Shown here piece by piece: positions 11,481 to 22,521 of a stretch of 23,853 nt of DNA; positions within the stretch are counted from its first letter, which is position 1; each line of letters begins with the position of its first letter. The notes beneath the pieces are model-generated. The model was given only the letters and a program-made list of their open reading frames with translations. It was not told the DNA's origin and did not search any database. The DNA is from a virus: the IMG/VR virus record IMGVR_UViG_3300036985_001283, positions 1 to 23,853 of that record; one strand, given 5' to 3'. The position numbers and the translations under genes are program-made.

Positions 11481-11696
11481 TTATAAGTTATATTTAATAA
11501 ATTGTTCTTCTGTTCCTAATAATATTGTTTCGTCTTTTAGTATGTTTGTTTTAATTATTTTCAATCCTAAAAATGTTTTTGGATATTCTTTATATTCACA
11601 AGACAACCAAAACTTAAAATTAAGTTGCTTTAATTCTTTAGCATTAAATTTAGTAAATAAAATCATATCCTTTAAAACGCTTTTTTGTATTTTCAT
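11481..11696 (-). CDS. Small phage protein of unknown function (71 aa)
   Basis: A longer version starting at 11771 is open, but that N-terminus would overlap the sigma-factor gene by 79 bases and be mostly Arg/Lys. The ATG at 11696-11694 overlaps the sigma factor TGA (ATGA) and gives a compact 71-residue protein, so I prefer it. It shows alternating strand-like segments (DMILFT, FKFWLSCEYKE, GLKIIKTNIL, ETILLGTEEQFIKY) with no recognised motif. Two bases separate its stop from the Cys-rich gene. Confidence 0.65.
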   Translation of the reverse strand: MKIQKSVLKDMILFTKFNAKELKQLNFKFWLSCEYKEYPKTFLGLKIIKTNILKDETILLGTEEQFIKYNL

Positions 11697-12226
11697 TTTA
11701 TAAGTTCGTAATCTTTGTTTTGGTAATCTTGATAGTTTTCTTTTAAGTTTTCTTTGATTCGTGTTTTGCAATATTTCAACGTATGGAAAATACTCGTAAC
11801 GCTTATATTTGTTTCCTTGCTTATTTCGCGCATAGACATATCAGAATCTTTATAAAGGTTAAAAAGCATTTGGTCGTACCAATGCCATTCATCTACTACG
11901 TTTTCAACTTGGTTCAATAAGTAATTATATGATTCGTGTTTTTGTACTTCTGGCGCTTCGTCGGGTAACATAGCGATTGAATCCAAATCAACCTTTTGCA
12001 TTTTGTTTGCTTTATTAACGTGTTGTAAAAATGTATTCTTTAGAGCAAACCAAACATAACTTTTGTTTAAGTTTCCGTTTGTAAATAGTTTTTCTTCGTT
12101 GCTCCATTTCAATAACATTAAATAAGTTTCTTGTACGATGTCTTCAGCAAAGAAATATTCGCCAAACGAGTTAACTATTTTAACCCATTCTTTATGATGC
12201 TTTACAACTTTGTTAATCCATTCCAA
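11693..12226 (-). CDS. Sigma-70-family RNA polymerase sigma factor (177 aa)
   Basis: Region 2 is visible at about 10-75 (AEDIVQETYLMLLKW at 27-41, a clear sigma-2 signature of a DIVQET type) and region 4 at about 113-160, with the helix-turn-helix MSMREISKETNISVTSIFHTL. The size is that of ECF-type sigma factors with no region 1 or 3. It is the first gene after a terminator and a TATATTTG promoter and directly precedes terminase and tail genes, so it probably directs host polymerase to late phage promoters. Those promoters cannot be defined from this window alone. Late-gene activator is inferred; the sigma fold is well supported. Confidence 0.85.
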   Translation of the reverse strand: MEWINKVVKHHKEWVKIVNSFGEYFFAEDIVQETYLMLLKWSNEEKLFTNGNLNKSYVWFALKNTFLQHVNKANKMQKVDLDSIAMLPDEAPEVQKHESYNYLLNQVENVVDEWHWYDQMLFNLYKDSDMSMREISKETNISVTSIFHTLKYCKTRIKENLKENYQDYQNKDYELIK

Positions 12227-12809: not shown

Positions 12810-13142
12810 TTAAAATGGTAAATCGTTGTCGCTATCGTCAACCATTATAATTGGTTCTTTAACTGCCGTTCCAACTGCGTTAATTTGCCAACCTTCAATA
12901 GTGTTAAAGTATTTTATTTCGCCTTGTGGACTTTTCCATTCACGCCCTCGTAAATTAATACTAATTTCAACTTGTTGTCCTATGTCGTTTTGGGTTATTA
13001 AGTCGGTTTTGTCTTGAGTAAATTGGATTGTAATATACTGCGGAAACTTTTCGTCCGTTAATAATACAACATCTTTTGATTTGAATTTTTCGCTTACTTT
13101 TCTAAGCGTTCCCACGTTGTGGATTTTTCCCGTTACTTTCAT
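12810..13142 (-). CDS. DUF3127-like single-stranded DNA-binding (OB-fold) protein (110 aa)
   Basis: The 110-residue protein starts with strands MKVTGKIHNVG, VVLLTDE and QYITIQFTQDK, then an EISINLRGREW strand and a WQINAVG strand, a five-strand pattern consistent with an OB fold. It ends with an acidic tail DDSDNDLPF, the classical SSB-type tip that contacts partner proteins. This matches DUF3127 (SSB-like) proteins of Bacteroidetes. It sits in the same operon as an annealing protein and an exonuclease, so it probably protects single strands during recombination and replication. Confidence 0.8.
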   Translation of the reverse strand: MKVTGKIHNVGTLRKVSEKFKSKDVVLLTDEKFPQYITIQFTQDKTDLITQNDIGQQVEISINLRGREWKSPQGEIKYFNTIEGWQINAVGTAVKEPIIMVDDSDNDLPF

Positions 13143-16642: not shown

Positions 16643-17575
16643 TTATTGGTTTGCTTTTTTGTTCAATTCGTCCCAAATATCAAGTTTTTTTTGTTGCTTA
16701 AAAATTGGCGCTTGTTTTGGTCTTAACTTTTGTAAAGGGTCTATTGAATCAATTGTAAACCCAACTCCGTAATTATAATTACATAAAACGGGAACATCCA
16801 AAGCCGTATGTTTTCCGCCCGTGTCCGTATCTTTTATTTTTTCAACTCCTACCATTGTAAAAAATTTCATTGTTTCGTGTTTTATAAGCCTATGGATTAC
16901 AAACATATCGTCACACCTATTTAAAAATGCTTTTCCTCCTTCGATATGGTCTTTTAACGGACTTTTCAAGTGTTGCTTCCAATGGTGGTTTTCGGGGTAT
17001 AAATTACCGCTTCGTCCGCTTTCGCTTGTGGGATGGGTATTAATGTAAATTGTTTTTCCCGTTTCGTTTACAAATTGCCGTGCCATATTTAAAAACTTGT
17101 AATTGCCTTCGTAATTCATTTCCCTATCTAAGCCCGTAAACGGGTCAATTAAACAAGCGTCTGCGTCTGAGTTCCTAAAAATTTCTAATAATTCAGTCGG
17201 TTTGTAAAGTTTTGAGTTGTCAATAAAAGTAAATGATTGCTCTAAAAATGTTGAATAAGTTAAAATTTCTTGTTCGCTTAATTCTTTAAATGGTCTTCCC
17301 GAATACATCTGAATCATATCGCGTAATATTTGCCCGTGTTGATTTTCACCGCTCCATAAAATAAACTTAAGATTGTTCGTTAAACTCAAGGTTAAAAAAT
17401 ACCAAGTAATCCAATAAGACTTGCCAACGTTGTCGTGTCCCAAAATTATATTTAGTTGCTTTGGTTTAAATCTTAAATGATTATCCAACGGGCAACCAAT
17501 CGACAAACCTTGTTTTATTTTTCCGTTTTTATAATCCAATAAATAGTTGATTCCAGAACCGCTTTTAATTAACAT
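16643..17575 (-). CDS. RecA-fold replicative helicase/ATPase (DnaB or RepA type)
   Basis: The protein carries Walker A LGHDNVGKSYW with GxxxxGKS at 46-53, a strand FILWSGENQ (71-79), Walker B ADACLIDPFTGLD with Asp144, and a Thr/His/Ser segment INTHPTSESG near 174-183 that fits a sensor or loop region. The 310-residue length lacks a DnaB N-terminal domain, closer to RepA-type or AAA_25 helicases that load on origin DNA and unwind it. It overlaps the upstream replication protein by 11 bases, so the two probably act together. Confidence 0.8.
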   Translation of the reverse strand: MLIKSGSGINYLLDYKNGKIKQGLSIGCPLDNHLRFKPKQLNIILGHDNVGKSYWITWYFLTLSLTNNLKFILWSGENQHGQILRDMIQMYSGRPFKELSEQEILTYSTFLEQSFTFIDNSKLYKPTELLEIFRNSDADACLIDPFTGLDREMNYEGNYKFLNMARQFVNETGKTIYINTHPTSESGRSGNLYPENHHWKQHLKSPLKDHIEGGKAFLNRCDDMFVIHRLIKHETMKFFTMVGVEKIKDTDTGGKHTALDVPVLCNYNYGVGFTIDSIDPLQKLRPKQAPIFKQQKKLDIWDELNKKANQ

Positions 17576-18164
17576 TTTTTTTGGCTTTTAAGATTTGTTC
17601 GTTTTTTGCTATTTGTGCCATTACGTTTTTGTATAATCTATCGTCGCTTGTTTCAACTTCGTTTTTTTGTACGTCCCGTTTTAACCAATTCTTAGCCGTC
17701 AAATATAACGAGGAATAACTTTTATTTTGTTTATAGTTTTCAATACTATCAAGAACGTTATTTATTTGGTCTGCGGAATATTCAATTCTTAATTTATCAA
17801 AGTCTTCAATACTTAATTTTAAATGATTAAATTTTCTATATATATATATATCTTTTTCATTATCATTTACATTAACATTTACATTAGCTTCGGTTTTGCT
17901 TGTTTTTTGCTTCGGTTTTGCTTCCGTTTTGCTTTCTGGTTGCTTGTTTTTTGGTTTAATTCCGTTAAGATATTTTTTTAAATTTGCTTCTAATTGGGGT
18001 GCAATCAAAGTAAAGATGGTTTTACTTATTCCTTTTAACTCAACCCGTTTTCCGTTTAAACCTAATTCGTAAACTGCGTTCCAAACTTCCGCTTGATTTT
18101 CTTTTGGCAATTCTTTTATTGCTTCAAAAAAACTTCTGTAAATAATCATTGAATCCCTTTCCAT
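17565..18164 (-). CDS. DUF6291-like replication protein (199 aa)
   Basis: The N-terminus (SMIIYRSFFEAIKELPKEN, VWNAVYELGLNGK) matches DUF6291-type phage proteins found ahead of replicative helicases and often treated as replisome organisers or helicase loaders. The middle is a low-complexity hinge rich in Lys, Thr, Glu and Asn-Val repeats; the C-terminal half (about 115-175) is helical. The hinge DNA carries a (TA)7 tract at 17837-17851, a repeated catttacatta unit at 17864-17887 and a GCTTCGGTTTT-type repeat at about 17887-17937. Its ATG stands just after the terminator-like RNA and overlaps the helicase gene by 11 bases at the other end. The family call is fairly sure; the loader role is inferred. 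Confidence 0.7.
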   Translation of the reverse strand: MERDSMIIYRSFFEAIKELPKENQAEVWNAVYELGLNGKRVELKGISKTIFTLIAPQLEANLKKYLNGIKPKNKQPESKTEAKPKQKTSKTEANVNVNVNDNEKDIYIYRKFNHLKLSIEDFDKLRIEYSADQINNVLDSIENYKQNKSYSSLYLTAKNWLKRDVQKNEVETSDDRLYKNVMAQIAKNEQILKAKKNVN

Positions 18165-18165
18165 T

Positions 18166-18276
18166 TTAATAATTTTTAAGTAAAAAAAAACCCTCTTTAA
18201 ATCCGCAGGGTCTCACGTCCGCTTCATTAAAAAGGGTAATAATTTTTAGTGTTCTTATATTGTGAGACCGAACCAT
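18166..18276 (-). CDS. Possible 36-codon ORF over the structured RNA
   Basis: ATG at 18276-18274 to TAA at 18168-18166 gives 36 residues, MVRSHNIRTLKIITLFNEAD followed by a Cys-Gly-Phe segment ending in FFLLKNY. The ATG falls where a promoter at 18281 would start transcription (leaderless) and the stop is one base before the next ATG. The end is encoded by terminator bases (poly-T read as Phe/Leu), which is typical of spurious ORFs. An RNA is the better explanation; coding cannot be excluded. Confidence 0.25.
   Translation of the reverse strand: MVRSHNIRTLKIITLFNEADVRPCGFKEGFFLLKNY
18181..18276 (-). ncRNA. Putative small structured RNA with pseudoknot topology
   Basis: The minus-strand transcript contains GGUCUCAC (18269-18262) able to pair perfectly with GUGAGACC (18216-18209), and ACCCUUUUUAA (18238-18228) able to pair with UUAAAGAGGGU (18200-18190) with one U-G wobble. 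The order is stem B, stem A, B', A', with loops of about 23, 11 and 8 bases, so the two stems interleave as an H-type pseudoknot or act as exclusive alternatives. Nine T follow stem A, forming an intrinsic terminator. A TATATTTG box at 18288-18281 would start a roughly 90-base RNA. It may be a standalone sRNA, or a leader that controls readthrough into the replication genes. Class unknown. Confidence 0.55.
18182..18238 (-). terminator. Intrinsic terminator hairpin before the replication genes
   Basis: Eleven pairs between ACCCTTTTTAA (18238-18228) and TTAAAGAGGGT (18200-18190) enclose a large loop and are followed by nine T (18190-18182) on the minus strand. The loop contains GTGAGACC, which can instead pair with GGTCTCAC upstream. 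The replication protein gene starts 17 bases beyond, so readthrough or another promoter must express it. Confidence 0.65.
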
Positions 18277-18280
18277 ATTG

Positions 18281-18288
18281 CAAATATA
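18281..18288 (-). promoter_or_regulatory. Promoter -7 box (TATATTTG) for the structured RNA
   Basis: The minus strand reads TATATTTG at 18288-18281, identical to the boxes at 12250, 14495 and 20101. No TTG or TTTG is present 17-23 bases upstream, so it is a half-match. Transcription would start near 18275, at the base of the structured RNA. It overlaps nothing coding; the DnaA-like gene ends ten bases further. Confidence 0.45.
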
Positions 18289-18298
18289 AACTTTTATT

Positions 18299-18700
18299 TT
18301 AATTTAATTCGTTTTTATCTGAAAACTTATAAACATTATTTTGCAAACGCTTTTTAATCTTTGCTAAATCGTGGTAGTTTTTGCCATCCATTATATCTTG
18401 TATTAAATTACGTTCTTTTAATTCAATTTTTTTATTGTTAAATTCTTCGAATAAATCTTTAGTGTCAATCAAGTACATTTCGTCTTTTGCTCGTCCAAAA
18501 AGTTTGGATTGTGTTATTCCGTGAATTATAGTAGCGTGGTTCATCTGGAACAATTCCGCTATTTCACGTAAAACAAAATTGTTTCTTCGTAAGTAATTAA
18601 ATATAAACCAACGCCTATGCACTTTGTTTGGTTTTTTCGTGCGTTCCCGCAGGTTTTCGGTTTCAATTATTTCGTGTATTCTATCAATCAAGGTTTCCAT
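18299..18700 (-). CDS. DnaA domain IV-like DNA-binding protein (133 aa)
   Basis: Residues about 28-70 (HRRWFIFNYLRRNNFVLREI then AELFQMNHATIIHGI) resemble the DnaA C-terminal helix-turn-helix, including the NHATIIHGI variant of the DHTTVLHA signature that reads DnaA boxes. No AAA+ ATPase domain is present, so it is a stand-alone DNA-binding module of the kind found in phages, possibly an origin-binding or host-replication-modulating factor. The C-terminal half is Lys-rich and helical. It lies last in the early gene run, just before the structured RNA and the replication genes. Confidence 0.75.
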   Translation of the reverse strand: METLIDRIHEIIETENLRERTKKPNKVHRRWFIFNYLRRNNFVLREIAELFQMNHATIIHGITQSKLFGRAKDEMYLIDTKDLFEEFNNKKIELKERNLIQDIMDGKNYHDLAKIKKRLQNNVYKFSDKNELN

Positions 18701-21940: not shown

Positions 21941-22521
21941 AACTCTATTAATGTATAGGTAAATTTATTTCCGAATACCGCTTTAGCTTTATTTATTATT
22001 TTCATAAATTCCACAAAGTTTGCGTTGTATCTGAAAACTTGGCAACCTTCCGAAAAGTAATCTACATTTGATGGGTCTTTATAAATGCTTGAGCGGTGAA
22101 TATTGATTCCAAACATACCGCAATCAATTACTTTTTCGTCGTGAATTTTGTCTTTATTGTTGTCTCTATATACGCAAACATTCCCCAACCTTTGACAAAG
22201 CGCTTCATATTTTCCGTTATGTAAACTTACTGCGTAAACGCCTCTATATTGATTTGGAACTAATCTGGCAACGCCCCGTGAACTTCTTAAAATTTCAGTT
22301 GGTTTTTTTCCCGCGTCGGTTGTTATTGTCCATTCGTGAAATTGCCAAACTCCGTTAATTTTATAACTCAAAGTTAAAGTATCGTCGAATTCGTTAGTTA
22401 CTTTTTTTCCGCTTTTTAAATTACGAACTCCAACAATATTAACGTCGTAATCTTTTGCACTATCGAACCAAACGTAACCTTTACTTTTAACTGCCTTTTC
22501 TATTTGTTCCCGTGTGTACAT
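21937..22521 (-). CDS. Putative lysin with L,D-transpeptidase-like active site (194 aa)
   Basis: The protein lies in the lysis cassette between holin and spanin candidates. Near the C-terminus GINIHRSS (His142) and YFSEGCQVF (Ser157, Gly159, Cys160) form a pattern like the His and SxGC[IVR] of the YkuD L,D-transpeptidase fold, where Cys is the nucleophile. An N-terminal helix and a beta-rich central part (LTLSYKINGVWQFHEWTI) precede it. No lysozyme, amidase or M15 motif is present and no signal peptide is seen, so holin would have to release it. A peptidoglycan cross-link cleaving role is inferred. The ATG lies two bases after a 25-codon ORF. Confidence 0.6.
   Translation of the reverse strand: MYTREQIEKAVKSKGYVWFDSAKDYDVNIVGVRNLKSGKKVTNEFDDTLTLSYKINGVWQFHEWTITTDAGKKPTEILRSSRGVARLVPNQYRGVYAVSLHNGKYEALCQRLGNVCVYRDNNKDKIHDEKVIDCGMFGINIHRSSIYKDPSNVDYFSEGCQVFRYNANFVEFMKIINKAKAVFGNKFTYTLIEL

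Follow-up and report, generated by a model that had tools for sequence, protein, structure and literature searches.

The locus and its parts

The window, that is the whole stretch of DNA analysed here, comprises 23,853 bases of a virus record (IMGVR_UViG_3300036985_001283), and nearly all of its likely genes are on the minus strand. On this strand, 134 bases separate the gene of a small DnaA C-terminal-like helix-turn-helix protein (18299-18700) from that of a DUF6291 protein (17565-18164), and an RNA element that reads from 18288 to 18181 is located between them. The parts of the locus are listed below in the order in which they are read.

18299 to 18700, minus strand: gene of the small DnaA C-terminal-like helix-turn-helix protein, upstream of the RNA (Pfam Bac_DnaA_C, E 4e-4, under the curated cut-off)
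18281 to 18288, minus strand: TATATTTG, a putative Bacteroidota-type -7 promoter box (TAnnTTTG), recognised by its sequence
18251 to 18273, minus strand: hairpin H1, with a GUUC/GAAC stem (18273-18270 with 18254-18251) and a loop that begins with GGUCUCAC
18262 to 18269, minus strand: kissing strand 1, GGUCUCAC, in the H1 loop, pairing with 18216-18209
18238 to 18250, minus strand: A/U-rich linker of 13 nt, from H1 to the terminator
18190 to 18237, minus strand: terminator hairpin, with an 11-bp stem (arms 18237-18227 and 18200-18190, one U-G)
18205 to 18222, minus strand: hairpin H2, nested in the terminator, with a GCGG/CUGC stem (18222-18219 with 18208-18205) and the loop AC-GUGAGACC
18209 to 18216, minus strand: kissing strand 2, GUGAGACC, in the H2 loop, pairing with kissing strand 1
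18182 to 18190, minus strand: T tract of nine T, read from the sequence
17565 to 18164, minus strand: gene of the DUF6291 protein, downstream of the RNA (PF19808, E 1.5e-13, Pfam)
16643 to 17575, minus strand: DnaB/primase-helicase-like gene, next in the operon (phrog_18375, E 2e-15, and related families)

The sequence-only reading had described a box, an 8-bp pairing, an 11-bp stem and nine T beside genes for a DUF6291 replication protein and a helicase, the strand being left unstated. All of these elements are present, on the minus strand, and the Pfam match together with the matches of the next gene to phage primase/helicase families agrees with the two protein assignments. The C-terminal part of the DUF6291 protein gave a weak match to a phrog 'replisome organizer', and the protein is probably a replisome organizer. 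Its ATG (18164) lies 17 nt past the T tract. The DnaA-C-like upstream neighbour recurs in 74 of 166 homologous loci, and this small protein may bind a nearby origin. Elsewhere in the window, an ORF upstream of the terminase genes (11693-12226, minus strand) has a weak UPF0122/YlxM-like helix-turn-helix match just under the cut-off; it resembles a small sigma-factor-like protein and is a possible phage transcription factor. In addition, a DUF3127 protein (12810-13142, minus strand; PF11325, E 4e-24) adjoins ERF and exonuclease recombination genes, a location that suggests a single-strand-binding role.

The RNA has a length of about 95 nt. In DNA letters, its kissing pair is GGTCTCAC (18269-18262) with GTGAGACC (18216-18209), which form 8 bp. 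Beneath H2 lies a conserved UGAA/GGA internal loop. The sequence has the make-up of an intrinsic terminator, since the 11-bp stem is followed by nine T in the window, and this terminator is unusually long (about 48 nt with a 10-nt apical loop).

Covariation and topology of the RNA

That the element is a structured RNA is near certain. The real evidence for its fold is comparative, since the single-sequence fold of the window RNA is just mildly better than that of shuffles (z -1.8). Covariation was evaluated in 33 sequences: the window, 26 obtained by a search with the downstream protein and 6 from a previous DUF6291 search. Changes on both sides were observed in 25 of 27 pairs, counts that do not equal independent events as the sequences are related, and 98.4% of cells were paired. 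The four helices together reached a covariation score of 0.821, as compared with 0.064-0.094 when partners were slid by 1-3 columns. A larger set (n=67) gave the same picture.

In the kissing helix, which was scored on this same set of sequences found through their neighbouring protein, 7 of 8 pairs are compensatory and 99.6% of cells are paired, with a score of 0.730 against 0.024-0.071 for slid partners. This result is not circular, because the covariance model used for the alignment consisted of H1, H2 and the terminator, without the kissing pairs. For the other helices, where covariation is somewhat favoured by the model fitting, compensatory changes were found in 5 of 5 columns of the H1 stem (98.2% of cells paired), in 10 of 10 modelled pairs of the terminator stem (97.3%) and in 3 of 4 pairs of the H2 stem, the fourth being invariant (99.2%). 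Given the many distinct loop types, common descent of one sequence is insufficient as an explanation.

The order B-A-B'-A' of the pairing strands, proposed from the sequence and read as a pseudoknot, is real. Both stems and their interleaving were correctly drawn, covariation, on which the proposal had been staked, is strong in both, and B' does lie within the terminator loop. The GUUC/GAAC and GCGG/CUGC helices had been missed, and B' is also the loop of H2 nested there. Since the H1 and H2 stems turn both strands into hairpin loops, the 8-bp pairing amounts to a kissing of loops, one of which is inside the terminator. The covarying loop-loop helix with two flanking stems that covary too is what characterizes a kissing-loop RNA, and the topology predicted from the sequences is that of a kissing-loop complex compatible with the terminator. 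The earlier reading had left it open whether the two stems coexist or exclude each other. Coexistence is favoured, because covariation is seen in the kissing helix, in the terminator and also in the H2 stem, which cages the kissing strand. When the consensus of growing transcripts was folded, with a nested model in which the kissing and the terminator cannot be drawn together, the loop-loop helix was favoured at 70-78 nt and the terminator took over later.

The flanking signals are also retained. A run of at least five T was present in 87 of 93 homologues, and in the 93 aligned copies the linker measures 10-16 nt and is 84% A+T. TAnnTTTG was found in 38 of 39 protein-found homologues, as against 2.7% of background 23-nt windows, and exactly 5 nt ahead of H1 in 27 of the 39 copies; by its sequence it matches the Bacteroidota promoter -7 box and probably serves as such. 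The sequence-only proposal of a structured RNA that precedes the replication operon and ends in a terminator is supported, and the RNA has a promoter box of its own. The terminator arm contains an AUG (AAUGAA), which was considered too; of this stretch, only the UGA of the internal loop is conserved.

Family, neighbours and carriers

A pattern made of the two loop strands alone was run against the viral collection. Among the matches listed, spacings pile up at 45 and 46, and most of these matches share the box, H1, H2, the terminator and the T tract. As this pattern fixed the loops, two unbiased searches were added. The pattern for one of them consisted of the box and the H1 frame (GTTC N11 ATAGAAC) with free loop letters. 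It returned at least 99 distinct viral matches, of which 97 of 99 contain the full 8-bp partner with at most one G-U, and these 97 copies have 20 different loop sequences. When loops of different sequence were exchanged as a control, a mean of 1.6 out of about 86 matched. The other search, blind to the RNA, used an alignment of the downstream DUF6291 proteins as query and yielded 80 loci. The RNA was detected directly before the gene in 39 of them at E<1e-8 with the covariance model R2, a home-made model whose E-values are rough, and these 39 RNAs end 10-19 nt before the start codon. About 16 further loci contain, as judged by eye, a divergent RNA of the same topology; in the remaining ones the genes are too close together or nothing recognisable is present. 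DUF6291-type genes without the RNA generally lie close behind an upstream coding region. All totals for the family are lower bounds.

The divergent RNAs, which combine a box, a 5' strand and a terminator loop with its complement, have very different sequences such as GGTAGGA/TCCTACC and GTTGCAG/CTGCAAC. In ten loci they lie before the DUF6291 start codon at about 880-1000 of the locus, and they are possibly further subfamilies or convergent designs. Another variant, found in nine loci directly before the DUF6291 gene, scores weakly, at about 21-22 bits with model R1; its H1 loop is shorter and the contact comprises six bases (GTGCAG/CTGCAC). Separately, six contigs unrelated to the family (L034, at 683-891, and five others) hold the words GGTCTCAC/GTGAGACC many times over in clusters; GTGAGACC, for instance, recurs at intervals of a few tens of bases. 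A general scan of flavophage segments for pseudoknotted terminators was dropped as a statistic; it was too noisy because its swap control was contaminated by shared loops.

Each of the 185 copies checked has a start codon in line with it, no more than about 47 nt past the T tract. An in-line ORF was measured in 180 of them, at a median distance of 20 nt; the other 5 are located at contig ends and show an ATG in line at about 20 nt. The distances from box to H1 and from RNA to ATG are nearly fixed. The downstream genes form 35 clusters. Those with most members (62 of 180) encode DUF6291-type and other replisome-organizer-like proteins, and the products of others include a Prim-Pol protein, a GIY-YIG/AP2 protein, an antirepressor and small proteins of unknown kind. 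Most genomes that were searched whole contain one strong copy, usually one per genome of about 30 kb. Two metagenomic genomes have two strong copies each, with loops that differ (CATCCTAC/GCTCTCAC in one copy pair and GGTCTCAC/CGTCTAAC in the other), so each copy pairs with itself.

Among cultured phages, Tenacibaculum phage Gundel_1 holds a strong copy (NC_062747.1, 33903-34005), and the gene that immediately follows it encodes an AntA/KilAC antirepressor. A second candidate in this phage (NC_062747.1, 16801-16897) scores weakly and has loops that pair perfectly. It is flanked by a DnaA-like and a primosomal gene, and the gene order there is as in the window, with a quite different sequence. 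Cellulophaga phage phi10:1 holds a copy as well (E 5e-7, a rough value). Weak-scoring candidates with perfect loop pairs are present in Polaribacter phages Freya_10 and Danklef_1 and in Cellulophaga phage phi46:3, and these elements are likely relatives. One of the two phi46:3 candidates precedes an HNH endonuclease (KC821622.1, 2860-2951, minus strand); the other, which surfaced in the pseudoknotted-terminator scan, lies amid a cluster of tiny unknown genes (near 22,100-22,200, plus strand). By BLAST, the window RNA gave only chance matches in cultured phages, and a consensus-like query led to Gundel_1. Matches of the window RNA to Flavobacterium were gone with a narrower query.

In 84,980 bacterial species genomes, two patterns gave 0 and 11 matches, and the loop partner was present in 0 of 10 distinct ones. 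In 395 Bacteroidia genomes, the covariance model found none, in a weakly sensitive search that scored only 10 candidates in each genome listed, and a pattern search gave only chance-level matches. The family thus looks confined to phages, within the limited sensitivity of the bacterial searches. Judging by the promoter box and by the phages in culture that carry the RNA, the hosts are probably Flavobacteriia.

Known systems and competing readings

The element had not been recognised as a known class from its sequence, and Rfam 15, which includes Flavo-1, Bacteroidales-1, 6S-flavo, c4 and the PyrG leader, gave no match at gathering thresholds for the window and 10 homologous loci. The best weak match was PyrG_leader, with 20.3 bits where 65 are needed. 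Flavo-1, Bacteroidales-1, 6S-flavo and other Bacteroidota families of Rfam come from the same host phylum and were not among the weak matches either. No report of phage kissing terminators or of such an RNA was found in the literature covered, which includes few subscription journals.

By analogy, the RNA appears to work most like promoter-proximal phage control RNAs such as HK022 put and, from general knowledge, lambda pR'-tR', and it falls within the definition of none of them. In the lambda pR'-tR' late-gene switch (6S RNA, Q antiterminator), a promoter gives a short terminated RNA and the gene is expressed only on read-through. This layout of promoter, short terminated RNA and gene on read-through is shared, whereas the kissing RNA has a conserved structure, a spacing of about 100 nt and no identified antiterminator protein. 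The c4 antisense RNA of P1/P7-like phages (RF01695) is likewise a small phage RNA tied to antirepressor control, and the Gundel_1 copy precedes an antirepressor. In contrast to c4, the present RNA has no Rfam match, pairs within itself and in most copies precedes replication or other genes.

A small RNA, an attenuator or a ligand-sensing leader had been suggested by the sequence-only reading. A metabolite riboswitch is disfavoured by the 35 downstream clusters and by the few conserved unpaired bases of the family. A mutually exclusive antiterminator helix, which defines a classical transcription attenuator, was absent from consensus folding of truncated and full alignments. We lean towards a phage leader RNA, i.e. 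a cis-acting, promoter-proximal terminator with folding dependent on loop kissing. A cis leader is favoured by the constant distance of about 20 nt from RNA to start codon, and this link together with the copy-specific loops favours action in cis. The diversity of the downstream genes, with no obvious common signal, counts against it, as does the fact that a small RNA gene dropped into an operon would also place a strong terminator beside a start codon. The main rival, which seems rather unlikely, is accordingly a stable trans-acting small RNA whose ends would be shielded by the kissing fold and the terminator, whose linker would act on other RNAs or a protein and whose neighbouring gene would be expressed through read-through. 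An own promoter box at fixed spacing with a strong terminator, the usual single copy per genome, the diverse downstream genes and a linker that is fairly conserved and longer than any other unpaired part all speak for it. Nevertheless, an independent small RNA gene would not be required to lie before an in-line start codon as all 185 copies do, and no segment is invariant enough for a shared target, the loops differing among phages.

Two further readings turn on what the complementary loops and the promoter-proximal position might mean. The pRNA of phi29, part of the packaging motor, has two mutually complementary loops whose letters differ between phages. An oligomerising RNA of this sort, with loops pairing between molecules, would account for complementary, covarying loops in one phage RNA that vary by phage; it is very unlikely, as the kissing RNA is located in replication or early operons rather than among packaging genes, and as its linker length and adjoining hairpins give a geometry that fits pairing in cis. 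The kissing RNA also differs from pRNA in that it includes a terminator. By rough geometry, a linker of 10-16 nt would be long enough for pairing within one molecule. The idea that the stretch is no RNA and instead codes for protein or acts at the DNA level, for instance as a replication origin, is more improbable still. The element does adjoin replication genes, and one of the window's frames is by chance open through it, which is why a leader peptide was also considered; it was rejected. However, in 61 representatives, stops occur in 42, 59 and 52 of 61 for the three frames and indels are not in multiples of three. The coding pattern that would have spoken against an RNA is absent, since a loop spacing of 43-50 nt and these stops break all three frames in most of the 61. 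Moreover, the promoter box and the T tract are kept in orientation, and copies precede unrelated genes such as the Gundel_1 antirepressor. Finally, the RNA could be a put-like element that stays folded on the polymerase during elongation and suppresses termination at the RNA's own terminator and at later ones, which we regard as unlikely. HK022 putL is about 70 nt long, has two stem-loops and lies just downstream of PL (PMC9378689); the kissing RNA resembles putRNA as a short two-hairpin phage RNA directly downstream of an early promoter, and its position near such a promoter fits a put RNA. In contrast to the put RNA, for which PMC9378689 describes neither an intrinsic terminator nor a loop-loop helix, it includes an intrinsic terminator and covarying kissing loops and belongs to Bacteroidota hosts.

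A proposed leader model and its meaning

As a cis-acting leader, the RNA would be classed as a new family within the known kind of structured phage leader RNAs. Its cassette would consist of a promoter, an RNA of about 95 nt, an intrinsic terminator and a start codon about 20 nt later, placed where the replication or early operons of flavobacterial phages begin. H1 would form at the extreme 5' end of the nascent transcript and, once out of the polymerase, the H2 loop strand could form 8 bp with the H1 loop, after which H2 and the outer terminator stem would close around the kissing strand. The kissing may in this way help or time the folding of the long terminator. Most transcripts would presumably end early as a short RNA, and read-through into the replication gene would occur under a condition, or through a factor, that interferes with the kissing or the polymerase. 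Since the kissing letters vary freely among phages, recognition would be of shape, or the pairing purely intramolecular. More tentatively, and with some doubt, the RNA can be seen as a two-part terminator that works only if a distant 5' hairpin loop kisses the apical loop, thus a self-contained mobile switch in which each phage's own loop code would prevent interference between two copies.

The structured RNA is widespread and strongly supported by covariation, and its carriers are a group of phages in which gene regulation has hardly been studied. The natural self-matching loop pairs, of which there are at least 20, are ready-made parts for RNA engineering. Because the RNA sits at the entry to the replication operon, it probably sets the timing or strength of the start of replication, and across many flavobacterial viruses the kissing lock is kept while its letters change from virus to virus.
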